Positions 26,837 to 54,547 of a DNA stretch of 64,000 nt are shown here, one piece after another (position 1 is the stretch's first letter; every line of letters starts with the position of its first letter). This stretch comes from an uncultured Bacteroidota bacterium (GTDB lineage Bacteria; Bacteroidota; Bacteroidia; UKL13-3). The DNA lies in the NCBI GenBank assembly GCA_903850915.1, contig CAINMV010000014.1, forward strand, positions 124,001 to 188,000, read 5' to 3'. Made by a program: the position numbers and the translations under genes. Below the pieces are notes generated by a model, which saw only the letters and a program-made list of their open reading frames with translations, did not search any database and was not told the origin of the DNA.

Positions 26837-28369
26837 TTACAATTCGCTGGGTAAAACTTGAAATTCTTCACTGAAACATTTAGTAAAATACGCAGGGCTG
26901 CTAAATCCAACGCTGTAACATACTTCCGAAATATTGCCTTCTCGTTTCTCTATCATCAGCTTTGCTCTATTTAGACGATGCTTTCGAATAAAGAGGTTGG
27001 GTGTTATATTTATTAAGGCTTTGAGTTTTCTATTGAGTTGAGATGAACTCATCGCCACTTCATCGCTTAAATCATCAACAGAAAGATTTTCATTCATAAG
27101 ATTGGCATCAACAAACATTGTTAGCTTTTCAATAAATTTAAGCTCACGCTCGGAGTATTTTAGCCGGCTGTTGGCAATGGGCTTCCCTGAATAATACTTA
27201 TGAAGTCGTTCTCTTTTATCTAGTAAATTCTTCATTCTCGCTTCCAATTCAAAAGCGTTGAATGGCTTTGAAAGATAATCATCTGCACCAAATTCAAAGC
27301 CTTGAATTCGTTTTTCGCTAGCACTAATAGAGGTGAGTAGAACAATAGGAATATGGCTAGTTCTAGTGTCTTTTTTGATTTGCTCGCAAAGCTCAAACCC
27401 ATTCATTCGAGGCATCATAATATCGCTAACAATAATATCGGGAATTTTCGAAATTGTTTTCTCAAAAGCCTCTAAGCCATCGCAGGCAGTTATAACGTGA
27501 TATGATTTTTGAAAGAAGTTAATCAAGTAACTTCGTAAGTCGTCATTATCGTCCACCAAAAGCAGCATTGGTAAAAGTGAATCATTTTCAGATAAACTTA
27601 CGTCATCATGATTAGTTATTTTCTGGTTTTTCTCGTTAAAATTTTGTATTGTTTTTTCATAAGATATTGCAGCGGTGGCTAATTTAATTGGAATTTTAAG
27701 GGTGAACTCAGATCCTTTATCAACAACACTTTTAGCAGATATCTCTCCTCCCATTAATGTGGTAAGTTCCTTGCACAACGAAAGCCCAATGCCTGTTCCA
27801 TCCTGATCCACAAAACGGCGTGTGTCCCCCTGGTAAAAACGATCAAAAACAAAAGGAAGTTTTTCTTTGGTTATTCCTATCCCACTGTCGGTGACTACCA
27901 AATGCAATAATTTCTCATTTATTAAAGATAACTGGACCGTTACCTTACCTCCTGTTTTTGTGAATTTAGAAGCGTTTGAAACAAGATTTGACAGCACTTT
28001 TTCGAATTTATCTTTATCAAATAATATTGGCAAAGATTTGAAGTCGGAATAGAATAATAAACTAATCTTTTTATGCGAAATAAAAGCTTTGAAGGTGTTT
28101 AACAGTTGTTGAATGAAAAGCACGATATCACCCTGGTCCTCCTGCAATATCATACTTTTATTCTCCAATTTACTGATGTCCAACATCTCATTAATGAGTT
28201 TGAGAAGCTTGTTGGCGTTGTTTCGTATAATCTCTGCATTTAACTTCGCTTCATCGTCTTGCGAGTCATTCAGGATTTGTTGTGCAGGACTTAAAATGAG
28301 CGTAAGAGGTGTGCGAAATTCGTGAACAATATTCGAATAAAAGGCACTTAATTTATTCTCTGTGTCCAT
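26837..28369 (-). CDS. Hybrid histidine kinase / response regulator / AraC regulator lacking a sensor domain
   Basis: A 510-aa one-protein two-component system. HisKA comes first with phospho-acceptor His16 in IVHEFRTPL. The ATPase has N-box Asn132, DSGIGI (161-166) and GTGIGLSL (191-198). The receiver has DD at 273-274, phospho-acceptor Asp316 and Lys368. A C-terminal AraC-type HTH (about 420-510) follows. It resembles the C-terminal half of Bacteroidota hybrid two-component regulators, but the usual periplasmic beta-propeller, Y_Y_Y domain and membrane segment are absent, so it should be cytosolic. A perfect -7 element lies just upstream and valS ends 52 nt before the gene, so the short form looks genuine. 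Confidence 0.9.
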   Translation of the reverse strand: MDTENKLSAFYSNIVHEFRTPLTLILSPAQQILNDSQDDEAKLNAEIIRNNANKLLKLINEMLDISKLENKSMILQEDQGDIVLFIQQLLNTFKAFISHKKISLLFYSDFKSLPILFDKDKFEKVLSNLVSNASKFTKTGGKVTVQLSLINEKLLHLVVTDSGIGITKEKLPFVFDRFYQGDTRRFVDQDGTGIGLSLCKELTTLMGGEISAKSVVDKGSEFTLKIPIKLATAAISYEKTIQNFNEKNQKITNHDDVSLSENDSLLPMLLLVDDNDDLRSYLINFFQKSYHVITACDGLEAFEKTISKIPDIIVSDIMMPRMNGFELCEQIKKDTRTSHIPIVLLTSISASEKRIQGFEFGADDYLSKPFNAFELEARMKNLLDKRERLHKYYSGKPIANSRLKYSERELKFIEKLTMFVDANLMNENLSVDDLSDEVAMSSSQLNRKLKALINITPNLFIRKHRLNRAKLMIEKREGNISEVCYSVGFSSPAYFTKCFSEEFQVLPSEL

Positions 28370-48329: not shown

Positions 48330-48491
48330 TGTATTTTTCAAAAAAAATAGTGTGTTCGGTTTTAATTGCGCGTCACCTAAATTGGATAACAAGATTGAAA
48401 GTAGCAAGGTGATTTTTGTGAAGCTTAAAACTTGATTTCAACGGCGGTAGGTCTAGATTATTGAATTATGGACCTTCATTATGCTTTTTTG

Positions 48492-48499
48492 TATGTTTG
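48492..48499 (+). promoter_or_regulatory. Candidate -7 element inside the upstream extension of the sulfatase gene
   Basis: TATGTTTG matches TAnnTTTG. It lies downstream of an in-frame ATG at 48,481 and 5 nt upstream of the ATG at 48,505. If real, the mRNA would be nearly leaderless and the longer start is wrong. Confidence 0.4.
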
Positions 48500-48504
48500 C
48501 ATTT

Positions 48505-50379
48505 ATGGTAATTAAGAAATGGTGGTTTATACTACGTTACTTTCTCTTTTGGATGTTGCTCTTTGCTGCATACCGTTTGCTATTTATTATTCTTAATTAT
48601 GATAAATTTAGTAACGAGAGTTTTTTTTCCATTATTAGCAGTTTTTATTGGTCTCTTTGGCTGGATGCCTCTGCAGCATGTTATATACTAGCCTTACCCG
48701 TCGTGTTTCTTAGCTTAGGGTATCTTTTTCAAAATTCGAAATTCCTTAAAGCAATCAATGTTTTTAGCATAATAATGATATATGTGTATGGCTTTATTGC
48801 CATAGGTGAAGACGGCATTTATCGGGAATGGGGCACTAAACTTAATTTCCAAGCACTTTCTCATTTTGTACACTTTAATGAAGTAATCCGTACGATTTCA
48901 ACACCATTAATCATCGCTTTTTTTGGAGGGTGCCTGCTGTTTGGAAGTTTATTTACCTGGCTTTATTGGAAAATAATCAGACTTGAAGATCTTTACACGG
49001 AATTAAAATATCCTCTCGTTCGTTATCTTTTAGGCTTGTTAATACTTGTAGTTAATTCATTTGCCGTTTTTACTGGCATTCGTGGTGGCTGGGCACCAAT
49101 ACCTATCACTCAAAGCGTAAGTTACTACAGCCATAATCCTGTTCTCAATGACGCTTCTGTTAATGCTGCTTGGAATTTAGTTTCAAATTTCGCTGAAAAC
49201 TTCTTTAATTTTGATAAAAATCCATTTAACGCAATGCCGTTAGAACAAGCAGATCGTATTGTACGGGAAATGTATACAACCCAGGAAGATGATACTCCCG
49301 AGATATTATCGACAACGACACCGAATATTTGTTTTATTATCTTAGAAAGCTGGAGCGCAAATGTGGTTGGTAGTTGCGGTGGAATCAAAGACATCACGCC
49401 TTTCTTCGATTCTTTGACTACAAAAGGTGTATTGTTCGACAATATGATTACCTCGGCCTTGTCATCTGAGCAAGGAATAACGGCAGTGCTGAGTGGTCGG
49501 CCGCATACATATCGACTTTTTTACACCCATCAAGCCAATAAAACCAAAAACATGGGCTGTATAAGTAAGTCGTTCCACGAAAAAGGATATTCTACTGGGT
49601 TTTATTTTGGAGGTCAACTCAGTTATGGCAACTTAAAAGGGTATTTATACAATCAGGCGTTTGATGTAATAAAGGAAGAAAAGGATTTTGATGGGGGATT
49701 ATCTCGAGCGCGACTCGGCATTCATGATGGCATTATGTTGCAACAATATGCTCAGGCTTTAAATATTGTCCAGCAGCCATTTATGTATAGCTTATTTACG
49801 CTCAGTTCTCATATGCCATATGACATTCCGGTACCCCATGAATTTGATCATTTAGGAGCTGAAGGCTCTTATGCAAGTAGTGTTCACTATACCGATGCTT
49901 CATTGCGTGAATTTTTTAAAACAGCGAGTAAGATGCCTTGGTATAAAAACACTCTTTTTATTATGGTTGCTGATCATTCCCATAACACGCCTAATTTCAG
50001 CTACATGCAGTCGGCAGAATTCAACCATATTCCATGCCTTCTTTTTGGTGACGTTATAAAACAACAATATAAAGGGTTAGTAATCAAGCGCAAAGTGATG
50101 CAAGCCGATATCGCTGCCACCATTGTTCATCAATGTAAACTCAATACGTCTGGTTTCCCTTGGAGTCGAAATATCTTGAATTCATATACGCCTGAATGGG
50201 CGTTTTATCCGCTTCAGCAAGGCGGAGGCTATGCAGATGGGAAAAACTGGGTGGCCTTCGATACCTTTAAAAACAGCTATTTTTTAAGTAATACCTCGGA
50301 TTCTACAGAAATAAAAAAGTTACGTGCCCGCGGTGAAGCATTACAACAAGTTCTTTTCGACGAATTTTTAAAATTTTAA
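48505..50379 (+). CDS. LTA-synthase-like membrane sulfatase/phosphotransferase
   Basis: A 624-aa protein with about five N-terminal membrane segments (about 8-190) and a periplasmic alkaline-phosphatase/sulfatase domain (about 270-550). The motifs are FIILESWSAN (metal Glu, about 279), a nucleophile segment SSEQGITAVLSG, LSSHMPYD (about 434) and VADHSH (about 489). Relatives transfer phosphoglycerol or phosphoethanolamine to glycans. The nucleophile position, usually Thr, appears to be Ser here. The start at 48,505 is preferred to the ATG at 48,481. It precedes the FKBP array by 48 nt; a functional link is unproven. Confidence 0.85.
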   Translation: MVIKKWWFILRYFLFWMLLFAAYRLLFIILNYDKFSNESFFSIISSFYWSLWLDASAACYILALPVVFLSLGYLFQNSKFLKAINVFSIIMIYVYGFIAIGEDGIYREWGTKLNFQALSHFVHFNEVIRTISTPLIIAFFGGCLLFGSLFTWLYWKIIRLEDLYTELKYPLVRYLLGLLILVVNSFAVFTGIRGGWAPIPITQSVSYYSHNPVLNDASVNAAWNLVSNFAENFFNFDKNPFNAMPLEQADRIVREMYTTQEDDTPEILSTTTPNICFIILESWSANVVGSCGGIKDITPFFDSLTTKGVLFDNMITSALSSEQGITAVLSGRPHTYRLFYTHQANKTKNMGCISKSFHEKGYSTGFYFGGQLSYGNLKGYLYNQAFDVIKEEKDFDGGLSRARLGIHDGIMLQQYAQALNIVQQPFMYSLFTLSSHMPYDIPVPHEFDHLGAEGSYASSVHYTDASLREFFKTASKMPWYKNTLFIMVADHSHNTPNFSYMQSAEFNHIPCLLFGDVIKQQYKGLVIKRKVMQADIAATIVHQCKLNTSGFPWSRNILNSYTPEWAFYPLQQGGGYADGKNWVAFDTFKNSYFLSNTSDSTEIKKLRARGEALQQVLFDEFLKF

Positions 50380-50427: not shown

Positions 50428-51294
50428 ATGACCAAGTTTCTTATCTCTCTTGCAACCTTAGCCATCTTTATGGTATCATGTAACAATATGCAGAAAACCG
50501 CAGGTGGCCTCGAATACAAAATTTTCCATACCAATGGTGGAAGCAAAATTTCTGTAGGCGACTATGTTTTCTTCAAAGTAATAGGTAAAGCTGGCGATTC
50601 TGTATTATTTAACACCTATAAAAACGAACAAACACCATATATGGTTATGCCTGTTCAAGAGAACTTTAAAAAAGGAAATTTTGAAGAAGGGCTAACTTTA
50701 TTAGGAAGTGGTGATAGTGCATTATTTAAAATTAATGCCGATTCATTTTATTCTGTAATTGTTCATGCTGCAACGCCAAAATTTATTAAGAAAGGACAAG
50801 CCATTGAATTTTACATTAAGATAGATAGCTTTGTTACTAGAAAAGCATTGGAAGAACGCAAGGCACAAAGTGATTTGGCCATGGCAGAAACACAAAAGAA
50901 TGAAACTACAGCTATTGAAGCCTATGCCGCTTCGTCTGGATTGAAATATACTAAAACAGAAAGTGGGTTATATTATTCCATAACAAAAGCAACTAACGGT
51001 CCAAAGGCTTCAAAAGGAGAACAAGTTGAAACAAATTACACTGGTAAATTATTGAATGGAAAAGTGTTTGATACGAATGCTAAAACAGGAAAGCCCTTTG
51101 CCTTTGTATTGGGGGCGCAACAAGTGATAATGGGCTGGGACGAGATTTTTTCAATATTACATGAAGGAGAGAAAGCAACCATTATTTTGCCTTCTAGTTT
51201 AGCTTATGGTGCACAAGGTGCTGGTGCGGATATTGAGCCATATGCATCGTTGGTATTTGATGTGGAATTATTAAAAGTAAATAAATCAAAATAG
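50428..51294 (+). CDS. FKBP-type peptidyl-prolyl isomerase, lipoprotein (FKBP array gene 1)
   Basis: A 288-aa predicted lipoprotein (lipobox MVSC, Cys18). An N-terminal FKBP-like unit at about 28-140 is degenerate: it lacks the FD pair and has Phe where FKBPs have the pocket Trp. After a charged helix comes a full FKBP domain at about 175-287 with YTGKLLNGKVFD, FVLGAQQVIMGWDE and ILPSSLAYG, keeping the usual active-site residues (Tyr, Phe, Asp, Trp, Tyr). It probably helps protein folding in the periplasm. It is followed by three more FKBP genes with gaps of 11, 4 and 50 nt. Confidence 0.92.
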   Translation: MTKFLISLATLAIFMVSCNNMQKTAGGLEYKIFHTNGGSKISVGDYVFFKVIGKAGDSVLFNTYKNEQTPYMVMPVQENFKKGNFEEGLTLLGSGDSALFKINADSFYSVIVHAATPKFIKKGQAIEFYIKIDSFVTRKALEERKAQSDLAMAETQKNETTAIEAYAASSGLKYTKTESGLYYSITKATNGPKASKGEQVETNYTGKLLNGKVFDTNAKTGKPFAFVLGAQQVIMGWDEIFSILHEGEKATIILPSSLAYGAQGAGADIEPYASLVFDVELLKVNKSK

Positions 51295-51305
51295 TTTTTA
51301 TTAAT

Positions 51306-52646
51306 ATGATTCATTTTAAAGCAATCCTTGTTACTCCGCTATTATTATGCTGTGCCATTTTACAAGCACAGGATTCAAAAATAAAATTTAGTAAGTCACC
51401 TAGTGGATTAGAATACAAATTGTTCACAGCAGGAAAAGGGCCAAAAGTTGCTGGGGGTGATTTAGTTTATTTTAAATTCAAAGGAGTGGTAAGTGATTCC
51501 ACACTATATAATTCATATCGTAACACCCAAATGCCTTATATGAGTTTTGCGCTCAAGGAAAGTTTCCCTAAAGCAAACTTTGAGGAAGGCTTGAGTTTGA
51601 TGTGTAAAGGTGACAGTGCTTTGTTTTTGGTAAATGTAGATTCGTTTTTCAAAATTTACGCAGGTGCTCAATCACCATCTTTTGTCAAGCCTGGAGACAA
51701 GTTACATTTTTATGTTAAAGTGGATAGTTTTGTTACTAAAAATGAATTAGCAATGCGCAAATTAAAGGAAGAACAGGAAATGAAAGATAGAATCACAAAC
51801 GAAAGTACTATGATAGAAGAATTTGTAAAATCAACAGGGTTAAAGTTTAATCGCACGAATACGGGATTGTATTATGTTATAACCAAGGAATCGACTGGAG
51901 AAAAAGCAAGTCAAGGCGATAAAGTTGGCGCAATATACACTGGGAAGCTATTTAGTGGAAAGGTGTTCGATTCGAATAAGTCATCAGGTAATGCTTTTGA
52001 ATTCACCCTAGGAGCCCATCAGGTAATTGCTGGTTGGGATGAGATTTTTGGGATTCTAAAAGTGGGGGAGACTGCTACTATTGTGCTTCCGTCTTCATTG
52101 GCTTATGGTGCTCGAGGCGCAGGTGCCGACATTAAGCCATACACTCCGTTGGTTTTTGATGTAGAATTTATAAAATTAACCCCGGCAACAAGCGCAACAG
52201 AATCAGCCACCGTTGCTCCGCAATCCGAAACCGATATTCATTCAGAAGATGAGCTTGCGAAAATCAATAAATATATTATCGCTTCAGGTCTTAAGTTTAG
52301 TAAAACGCCTACTGGTTTATATTATCGAATTACACAATCTACGCAGGGAGCAAAAGCCAATGTTGGTGATGTAGTGGCTGCATTTTATACGGGTAAGTTA
52401 TTGGATGGGAAAGTGTTTGATTCGAATAAGTCTTCAGGCAATCCTTTTGAGTTTACCTTAGGCGCGCATCAGGTAATTGCTGGATGGGATGAAATTTTTG
52501 CGATGCTTAAGGTAGGAGAGGCAGCCACAATATTGCTTCCTTCTAATTTAGCCTATGGCGCAACTGGAGCCGGCGGTGTTATACCACCATATGCCCCTTT
52601 GATTTTTGATGTGGAATTTGTAAAGTATACACCAGGCCAACGTTAA
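51306..52646 (+). CDS. Three-domain FKBP-type peptidyl-prolyl isomerase (FKBP array gene 2)
   Basis: A 446-aa exported protein (signal peptide ending ILQAQ). It has three FKBP units: an N-terminal degenerate one (about 30-145, like that of gene 1), a complete one (about 180-290) and a second complete one (about 325-443). The last two are nearly identical in the core, with VFDSNKSSGN, FEFTLGAHQVIAGWDEIF and LAYGA in both, and the DNA repeats at a 450-bp offset. A low-complexity Ala/Thr/Ser linker joins them. This implies a fairly recent internal duplication. Confidence 0.93.
   Translation: MIHFKAILVTPLLLCCAILQAQDSKIKFSKSPSGLEYKLFTAGKGPKVAGGDLVYFKFKGVVSDSTLYNSYRNTQMPYMSFALKESFPKANFEEGLSLMCKGDSALFLVNVDSFFKIYAGAQSPSFVKPGDKLHFYVKVDSFVTKNELAMRKLKEEQEMKDRITNESTMIEEFVKSTGLKFNRTNTGLYYVITKESTGEKASQGDKVGAIYTGKLFSGKVFDSNKSSGNAFEFTLGAHQVIAGWDEIFGILKVGETATIVLPSSLAYGARGAGADIKPYTPLVFDVEFIKLTPATSATESATVAPQSETDIHSEDELAKINKYIIASGLKFSKTPTGLYYRITQSTQGAKANVGDVVAAFYTGKLLDGKVFDSNKSSGNPFEFTLGAHQVIAGWDEIFAMLKVGEAATILLPSNLAYGATGAGGVIPPYAPLIFDVEFVKYTPGQR
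51963..52620 (+). repeat. Internal duplication of an FKBP unit (period 450 bp)
   Basis: The segment from 51,963 (GTGTTCGATTCGAATAAGTC) recurs from 52,413 with only scattered, mostly third-position, differences over about 100 bp and weaker similarity to either side. The offset is exactly 450 bp, i.e. 150 codons, so the frame is kept. The duplicated core encodes the FKBP active-site region. Confidence 0.85.
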
Positions 52647-52650
52647 TCGT

Positions 52651-53502
52651 ATGTGTCAACTCAGTAAAGTTCTATTTTTCTTGCTGTTGATGCTCGGAAG
52701 TATTGCTCATGGGCAATATTTAACAGGGGACAATGGCGTGAAATATTTTTACTGGAGAGAAAACAAACAACCGTTGCATGCACGTGTAGGGGATTTAGTT
52801 TTTGTACATATGGTTGGTAAAACCGACAAAGATTCTGCTGTTATTAGTAGTTACTTTCAAGGAGATGCTTTTCAGATTTTCGTTCCTAAGCCCACTTATC
52901 ATGGATGTTTCTATGAGATGTTAACGATGATGGGAGAAAATGACAGCGCTGAGGTTTCTGTCATAGCCGACTCTTTATTTATTAAATCGCTCGGAAGTCC
53001 ATTGCCTTATTTTATTGCACCGGGTAGCAAGTTTCGCATTACGCTTAAAATGGTCTCGATTATAACACGTGAGGAATACGATAAGCGAATGACGGAAGAG
53101 GCTAAATACGCTGATCAAAATCAAAAGTTGGAGATTGAAAAGTATATTACCGAAAATCATTTACAAATGACAAAAACGGAATCTGGAATATATTACCAAT
53201 TCCCTTTGAAAGGATTTACACGTCGAGCTTTAATAGGAGATAGTGTGATTGTGCATTACTCAGGGTATTTTTTAAATGGAAAAGTTTTTGATAGTAGCGT
53301 GGAAAGAAATGAACCTTTTGCATTTAAATTAGGTACGGAAGCCATTATTAAAGGTTGGAACGAGGCATTACAACTGATGTCTATTCGCGATCGAATGTTG
53401 ATTATTTTGCCTTATCAATTGGCCTATGGTGAAAAAGGAGGATCGACAATCCCCCCATTTACGCCTTTGATTTTTGAAATTGAGTTGCTCGACATAAAAT
53501 AA
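52651..53502 (+). CDS. FKBP-type peptidyl-prolyl isomerase (FKBP array gene 3)
   Basis: A 283-aa exported protein with signal peptide ending IAHGQ (no lipobox). A strongly degenerate N-terminal FKBP-like unit (about 25-140) holds ARVGDLVFVHMVGK and GENDSAEVSVIADSLF. A helical linker and one complete FKBP domain (about 170-283) follow, with HYSGYFLNGKVFD, KLGTEAIIKGWNE and ILPYQLAYGEKG. It starts 4 nt after gene 2. The domain plan matches gene 1, so genes 1 and 3 are probably paralogues. Confidence 0.9.
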   Translation: MCQLSKVLFFLLLMLGSIAHGQYLTGDNGVKYFYWRENKQPLHARVGDLVFVHMVGKTDKDSAVISSYFQGDAFQIFVPKPTYHGCFYEMLTMMGENDSAEVSVIADSLFIKSLGSPLPYFIAPGSKFRITLKMVSIITREEYDKRMTEEAKYADQNQKLEIEKYITENHLQMTKTESGIYYQFPLKGFTRRALIGDSVIVHYSGYFLNGKVFDSSVERNEPFAFKLGTEAIIKGWNEALQLMSIRDRMLIILPYQLAYGEKGGSTIPPFTPLIFEIELLDIK

Positions 53503-53552
53503 CGTTGCCTTAAGTACGTTTGATATTACAGCAATAAATCCTATAAAGCGAT

Positions 53553-54404
53553 ATGCCCAAATTAATTGATTTAATGTTTATTGTAGCCTTTTTCTTTGCT
53601 TGCAACACTCCTCAAAAGGCTGTTTCTTCAAAGGTAGAAAAAGGCAGTAACGCTAGCGCATCAATAAATATTGTTAGTACAGGTCCGGATACGATTACTA
53701 CATTGAGCGGATTAAAATATCTCGTTTTTAGGCATAAAGGTGGTAGTGAAAAGCCGAATTATGCAGATAAGGTTTCTGTAAATTACAGGGGCAAGCTTTC
53801 GGATGGAACTATTTTTGATGATAGTTATAAACGTGGCGAGCCGTTCGAATTCCAATTAGGTATGCGCAAGGTAATTCGTGGTTGGGATGAAGGTATAGCA
53901 TTGCTTTCTGTTGGTGATTCAGCATTACTAATAATACCACCTTCACTTGGATATGGCGATATAGCAAGAGGCGGCATACCGGCCAATTCCACCTTGTATT
54001 TTGAAGTTGAACTTGTAAAGGTAAAGGAGCCGGTCTTTGTAAATGAGTATATATGGCAAAACAAACCACCTCATATCACATCTTCTGGTCTTAAATACTA
54101 TGTTGTGAAAGAAGGATCAGGAAATAAAGCCTATAAGGGTGGCATCGTGAAAATTCACTATACCGGTTATCTTGCTGATGGCAAAATGTTCGAAACAACA
54201 ATTCTTAACGAGACCCCTGTTGAATATCAAGTTGGGACAGGCCTTCCTGGGCTTGATGAAGGGTTGCTTTTGATGCATCAAGGTTCAAAATACCGATTTA
54301 TTGTTCCTCCAATACTCGGATATGGCAATGTAGAGGCAGGTGGTGGACTCATTCCAGCGAATTCAATTCTTACCTTTGACTGCGAGCTAGTAGAAGTTAA
54401 ATAA
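53553..54404 (+). CDS. Two-domain FKBP-type peptidyl-prolyl isomerase, lipoprotein (FKBP array gene 4)
   Basis: A 283-aa predicted lipoprotein (FFAC, Cys17). It has two FKBP domains, at about 50-160 and 175-283. The first is canonical (NYRGKLSDGTIFDD, MRKVIRGWDEG, IPPSLGYGD). In the second the pocket Trp is Leu (LPGLDEG) and the Asp is Glu (MFETT), so its isomerase activity may be reduced. The plan differs from genes 1-3, which have a degenerate first unit instead. It resembles the single-copy lipoprotein FKBPs (such as GldI) linked to gliding and T9SS only in general type. Confidence 0.9.
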   Translation: MPKLIDLMFIVAFFFACNTPQKAVSSKVEKGSNASASINIVSTGPDTITTLSGLKYLVFRHKGGSEKPNYADKVSVNYRGKLSDGTIFDDSYKRGEPFEFQLGMRKVIRGWDEGIALLSVGDSALLIIPPSLGYGDIARGGIPANSTLYFEVELVKVKEPVFVNEYIWQNKPPHITSSGLKYYVVKEGSGNKAYKGGIVKIHYTGYLADGKMFETTILNETPVEYQVGTGLPGLDEGLLLMHQGSKYRFIVPPILGYGNVEAGGGLIPANSILTFDCELVEVK

Positions 54405-54547
54405 TTTGAAAGGCAAAGGGAAAAATTTAGACTTATCAATAGCTAAGCCTTTTTAATTATTTGACTTTTGAGGGGGCAGAATGTCACATTTTACCCCTTT
54501 ATTTTAATAAATTTACAGCCCCTTTTTATAGTAAACAAACAGGAAAA

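Follow-up and report, generated by a model that had tools for sequence, protein, structure and literature searches.

GldI is an envelope lipoprotein with a peptidyl-prolyl isomerase (PPIase) fold and a single FKBP unit, encoded in Flavobacteriaceae at a locus where nrnA is followed by genes for exported FKBPs. Both gliding and the stability of lipoproteins of the type IX secretion system (T9SS) depend on it. GldJ and GldK/PorK require it for their stability, and another PPIase is bound to SprA and is dispensable for T9SS function (PMC9127263). BamJ, BamK and BamM, envelope lipoproteins of Bacteroidota that likewise carry PPIase folds, are positioned over BamA in the β-barrel assembly machinery (BAM) (PMC12578637, PMC12611786). 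The chain of eukaryotic FKBP51 and FKBP52 combines an active FKBP unit with an inactive one, FK2, which has no PPIase activity (PMC8847985). Here, we describe an array of four neighboring FKBP genes in a 64,000-nucleotide stretch of DNA (the window) from an uncultured Bacteroidota bacterium (contig CAINMV010000014.1, positions 124,001 to 188,000). We consider it reasonably probable that the array is the local, GldI-less form of an nrnA–gldI folding locus conserved across Bacteroidia, and that its proteins are periplasmic isomerase-chaperones whose clients are outer-membrane and secreted proteins.

Architecture of the array and its catalytic pockets

The four genes (50428–54404, all on the + strand in the list of open frames) are separated by gaps of 11, 4 and 50 bp and encode 2, 3, 2 and 2 FKBP units, nine altogether. 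We distinguish an N-terminal FKBP-like unit without the catalytic pocket (N-unit) from the catalytic-type FKBP unit (C-unit); in these terms, genes 1 and 3 are N+C (NC type), gene 2 is N+C+C (NCC) and gene 4 is C+C (CC). Pfam FKBP_C (PF00254) scores above its cut-off in every gene, with E values from 1e-30 to 2e-61. A whole-genome FKBP_C scan found five FKBP genes in the 2.9-Mb genome, four of which sit in the array; the fifth is a 145-aa gene with a lipoprotein-like start. Lipoboxes are present in genes 1 (MVSC) and 4 (FFAC) only, and genes 2 and 3 begin with a signal-like hydrophobic stretch. A Pfam scan of the array genes found no cyclophilin domain (PF00160), and in a promoter and terminator scan of the array, terminators did not rise above shuffled sequences and no clear unit boundary emerged. 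An earlier reading of the window made from its letters alone (the sequence-only reading) had described four adjacent genes with nine units, two predicted lipoproteins among the products, a degenerate first unit lacking the pocket tryptophan and the Phe-Asp pair in genes 1–3, and a Trp-to-Leu change in the second unit of gene 4. The open frames, the FKBP_C matches, the structural models, the lipoboxes and the pocket residues given below bear out all of these points.

At the pocket positions Y26, F36, D37, I56, W59, Y82 and F99 (FKBP12 numbering), five of the nine units retain every residue, and because these five C-units are intact in sequence, they are likely to have isomerase activity. The N-units of genes 1–3 all lack W59, have Y26 replaced, and read F-N, Y-N and I-S, respectively, at the F36-D37 pair. 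The same division runs through a wider family set, in which W59 is present in 32/32 C-units and absent from 32/32 N-units. The N-units are not the ordinary FKBPs they might have proved to be.

Two further changes are recent and private to the species in the window. The second unit of gene 4 departs from the FKBP12 pocket by E37, L59 and a two-residue deletion; among 21 aligned counterparts, the tryptophan stands in all 20 relatives, and only in this species does the unit evolve faster, with 61–65% identity to its relatives as against 77–82% among them. No other unit has degenerated solely in this species, and its activity may have been lost lately. Between them, the two C-units of gene 2 share 73% identity; they adjoin in the tree described below, and the counterparts of gene 2 in the three genus relatives that we read have one C-unit only. 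An N+C+C build occurs also in Bacteroidales and other relatives (L075:6963-8264, L086:2057-3361, L097:3035-4420, L117:7908-9236, L122:4019-5398, L136:3697-5028 and L137:9183-10547); since the extra unit of gene 2 is a recent duplicate, there seems to have been more than one origin of this build.

Fold and conservation of the N-terminal units

Taken alone and compared with FKBP_C, whose cut-off is 21.1 bits, the N-units of genes 1, 2 and 3 score 15.2, 29.5 and 13.8 bits, and only that of gene 2 passes; scores this low mark the units as divergent. The N-unit family profile matches solved FKBPs in the PDB with a best E of 9e-10. Predicted structures of gene 3 (pLDDT 91.9, pTM 0.73) and gene 2 (pLDDT 90.1, pTM 0.61) have strands and helices in like order in N- and C-units, with a helix of 29–33 residues between them; structure prediction, which the sequence-only reading had put forward as a check, thus returned the FKBP order of elements for the N-units of both proteins.

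Across 37 N-units from several orders, D36, D75, D84 and P96 are invariant (numbered on the aligned piece from the window), and G6, Y9 and S76 are nearly so. Within the genus, the N-units of genes 1 and 3 are 58–76% identical, compared with 62–86% for the catalytic units, and the N-unit of gene 2 is conserved less than its C-units. The N-units appear to be under purifying selection, with dN/dS (the ratio of nonsynonymous to synonymous substitution rates) of 0.07–0.15 where dS is measurable, a rough estimate since dS is saturated in most pairs. The N-units form one conserved subfamily with the FKBP fold and without the catalytic pocket, rather than a product of random decay.

The connecting helix and catalytic unit match FkpA, Mip and chain B of 6h3i with Z of 19.3–20.2 over 137–147 residues, the helix included. 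FkpA and Mip share with the window's proteins an exported FKBP unit after a long helix (Z about 20), but have an FKBP_N dimerization domain where the window's proteins have a pocketless FKBP fold; FKBP_N (PF01346) reaches at best 13.5 bits in the array genes, below its cut-off of 22. The T9SS translocon PPIase (6h3i chain B, Fjoh_4997) is likewise an exported Bacteroidota FKBP with an N-terminal helix (Z 19–20), but it has a single unit, and its likeness to the window's proteins is a fold match only. Since these structural rows, made with VIA-align, take in the helix and the catalytic unit only, the fold of the N-unit rests on the models, the profile match and the two-unit Foldseek alignments. 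In the latter, the best matches of gene 3 are two-domain fragments of FKBP52 and FKBP51 (267 columns, E 7e-17). The pairing of an active with a predicted inactive unit is common to both, but the window's proteins place the inactive unit first, lack the tetratricopeptide repeats, carry a long helix between the units and belong to the envelope. The cyclophilin-FKBP dual immunophilins (CFBP) are two-module PPIases as well, and differ in having the cyclophilin domain.

An nrnA–gldI neighborhood across Bacteroidia

A search with the gene 3 protein found relatives in 57/58 genomes of the family, in 13/14 genera, mostly as 2–4 neighboring matches per genome. We read 20 regions completely: they usually have between one and four NC genes and, after these on the same strand, a single gene that encodes two or three FKBP units. 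The arrays of relatives hold two to five genes; "four genes, nine units" is a local form only. In most genera of the family besides that of the window, a DHH-DHHA1 phosphoesterase of the NrnA type lies directly upstream (Pfam scan of six). In the window's genus, the nrnA-like gene is on another contig and a sulfatase-fold gene occupies its place; the latter adjoins the array in the window and in three genus relatives and not in the other genera read.

The neighborhood extends through the class. For each of 60 families, we read the region downstream of nrnA in a single genome, and 57 could be parsed: an FKBP gene comes first on the same strand in 42/57, and an NC protein stands in the run after nrnA in 27/57, both lower limits, as some are lost to contig ends and to the gene-calling rule. 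A profile search made separately placed 21/24 of the strong N-unit matches from outside the family next to nrnA. All 18 genomes with a GldI above the curated cut-off have an nrnA-like gene directly before gldI and a further PPIase gene behind it; in the three cases scanned, this third gene encodes a cyclophilin-FKBP protein (two cases) or an FKBP_N-FKBP protein (one). In named genomes, searched with the CC alignment profile, several Bacteroidales and unclassified Bacteroidetes records show nrnA and then a 180-aa FKBP, up to three NC genes (at least one) and a gene that carries two or three FKBP units; nrnA together with NC occurs in Mucilaginibacter and Dyadobacter. Judged by its relatives, the array locus belongs to the gldI neighborhood of Bacteroidota. 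With relatives throughout the family and N-units recurring throughout the class, the array is not a private duplication. Conservation of gene order, which the sequence-only reading had proposed to look for, holds for the neighborhood and not for the four-gene form. A 0.5-Mb reduced genome of the class (L243, G323) keeps an nrnA-like gene, with no FKBP after it and no SprA.

Synteny had suggested that genes 1–3 might be orthologs of gldI, a proposal that the tree rules out. Among about 340 catalytic units, GldI and the single-unit genes directly after nrnA fall in one clade (61/63 members, support 0.93), catalytic domains cluster by architecture, and the array units group with those of the NC, CC1 and CC2 types from other genomes. 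The GldI model TIGR03516 (cut-off 157.6 bits) gives at best 97.2 bits, for gene 2, and that over three stretches. The window's proteins, with their N-units or tandem units, are separate neighbors of GldI and not GldI itself; in the window's family, the NC and CC genes persist, and the array contains no gene of the GldI clade.

Features of the array and the gene upstream (positions in the window; pocket residues by FKBP12 numbering)
Feature	Position	Strand	Remarks
Gene 1, lipoprotein, predicted inactive N-unit + helix + catalytic FKBP unit (NC)	50428..51294	+	288 aa; lipobox MVSC followed by NNMQKT
N-unit of gene 1, predicted inactive	50488..50853	+	W59 absent, Y26->V, D37->N
Catalytic-type FKBP unit of gene 1	50944..51282	+	
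Gene 2, exported, without lipobox, N-unit + helix + two FKBP units (NCC)	51306..52646	+	446 aa
N-unit of gene 2, predicted inactive	51387..51755	+	
Long connecting helix of gene 2, residues 145-177	51738..51836	+	model; aligned with Mip/FkpA helix
Catalytic-type FKBP unit 1 of gene 2	51846..52187	+	
Catalytic-type FKBP unit 2 of gene 2	52290..52634	+	recent internal duplicate of unit 1
Gene 3, exported, without lipobox, NC type	52651..53502	+	283 aa; most diverged paralog
N-unit of gene 3, predicted inactive	52717..53064	+	
Long connecting helix of gene 3, residues 140-168	53068..53154	+	model; FkpA/Mip alignment
Catalytic-type FKBP unit of gene 3	53161..53499	+	
Gene 4, lipoprotein, two tandem FKBP units (CC)	53553..54404	+	283 aa; lipobox FFAC followed by NTPQKA
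Catalytic-type FKBP unit 1 of gene 4	53697..54026	+	top FKBP_C score of the genome
FKBP unit 2 of gene 4	54063..54401	+	W59->L, D37->E, 2-residue deletion
Upstream sulfatase-fold gene	48481..50379	+	LTA-synthase-like

Downstream, genus relatives have a gene of about 514 aa between the array and a DegT-type aminotransferase (L029:4496-6040, L030:4477-6024 and L031:11402-12946). It is missing here (54404–54461), and a homolog, 26% identical, lies at 26837–28369 of the window.

Proposed working and alternatives

In the working that we propose, the catalytic units would isomerize prolyl bonds in outer-membrane and secreted proteins as these cross the periplasm. The inactive unit would stand in for the N-terminal dimerization domain of FkpA and Mip, holding a client or a partner copy and so keeping the enzyme near. 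The products of genes 1 and 4 would be lipid-anchored, probably at the periplasmic face of the outer membrane, and those of genes 2 and 3 soluble. The N-unit has been kept although its pocket is lost; judged by what stands at the N-terminus of FkpA and Mip, it most likely binds clients or a second copy. The sequence-only reading had guessed that the degenerate units bind clients or each other; their conservation as inactive units fits a structural and probably a binding role, and for binding itself we argue by analogy. A more specific and only tentative possibility is that the N-unit is a dedicated docking domain of a kind not described before, which binds one fixed partner and so brings the catalytic unit to it; this partner might be a component of the T9SS ring or translocon, BAM or a nascent barrel.

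Several observations weigh against the reading that we prefer. FKBP51 and FKBP52 align with gene 3 in sequence order but with a root-mean-square deviation of about 16, meaning that the units are placed differently relative to each other or that their placement is poorly predicted, and saturation of dS blurs the selection estimate for the N-units. The removal of nrnA from the array in the window's genus means that adjacency itself is not essential. The link to the T9SS comes from the neighborhood and from the known role of GldI, and a complete genome without SprA (L257, G059, family f2) keeps nrnA followed by a protein with an N-unit and an FKBP unit.

The last two points bear on whether the array is instead a set dedicated to the T9SS, acting in the role of GldI to fold or stabilize GldK/PorK, GldJ, SprA or the cargo. 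T9SS clients are plausible by analogy with GldI: the array shares its neighborhood, GldJ and GldK/PorK depend on it, a PPIase is bound to SprA, and the window's family has SprA with no GldI-clade gene in the array. The genome encodes SprA and about 125 T9SS C-terminal domains, a large cargo set that offers many candidate clients. Three small proteins of the window itself end in such domains (TIGR04183; 17959–18636, 31218–32159 and 32277–33170), which makes them possible clients close to the array. In many families, however, NC proteins stand alongside genes of the GldI clade and are thus not replacements by origin, and the PPIase on SprA can be dispensed with. SprA is present in 57/60 and 29/30 genomes, and being nearly universal, its co-occurrence has no power as a test of T9SS dependence, apart from one informative exception. 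That exception, the SprA-less genome that retains nrnA plus NC, leads us to prefer a general outer-membrane and secretion chaperone and to regard exclusive T9SS service as rather unlikely.

We think it unlikely, too, that the array is a set of redundant paralogs under weak constraint, a housekeeping complement of PPIases with duplicated and partly decaying units in which the degenerate ones have no special function. The number of units does vary, the third unit of gene 2 is a recent duplicate, and the second unit of gene 4 has lost its tryptophan and evolved faster in this species. Against this stand the four residues that are invariant over 37 N-units of several orders and, in genes 1 and 3, N-units that are conserved much like the C-units.

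Membership of BamJ, BamK or BamM is ruled out by cut-off, locus and lipoprotein signal, and it is very unlikely that the array proteins are accessory surface PPIases of BAM in the manner of these three, with which they share the PPIase fold and a Bacteroidota envelope setting that includes lipoproteins. Genes 2 and 4 pass the NCBIfam cut-off for BamJ (NF053689, 100 bits), but only when two stretches are added up; for genes 1 and 3 the scores are 82.6 and 95.6 bits, single units fail the BamJ and BamM models, and the best BamM score (NF053691) is 83.7 bits against a cut-off of 315. The BamJ model also gives matches in E. coli, and its best matches in the phylum lie away from the nrnA locus. BamJ and BamK have at least two acidic residues among the first six after the lipid cysteine (PMC12578637), whereas gene 1 and its family counterparts (18) have none or one, and the hexapeptides NNMQKT (gene 1) and NTPQKA (gene 4) depart from this surface-export rule. 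With so few acidic residues after the cysteine, the periplasmic face is favored over a surface location of the BAM type. The BamJ cut-off of 100 bits probably over-annotates, as the E. coli matches and the passing of multi-unit FKBPs by summed units suggest, and annotators should be warned that such proteins may pass it by adding units.

Significance

The array that we read as a GldI-less nrnA–gldI locus is a recognizable folding system that has received little study, not a peculiarity of a single genome. The sequence-only reading had suggested a specialized folding system: the comparison supports a conserved envelope locus dedicated to folding, though one not unknown in kind, since it belongs to the nrnA–gldI neighborhood. 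GldI is one of several PPIase genes held together beside nrnA across Bacteroidia, and in many of its neighbors a conserved inactive unit accompanies the catalytic one. Were the N-unit to prove a docking domain, Bacteroidia would have a chaperone system of the periplasm that is linked to GldI and differs from SurA, Skp and FkpA. Studies of protein folding at the surface and in the secretome of Bacteroidota can thus start from a defined group of genes and a single defined domain.

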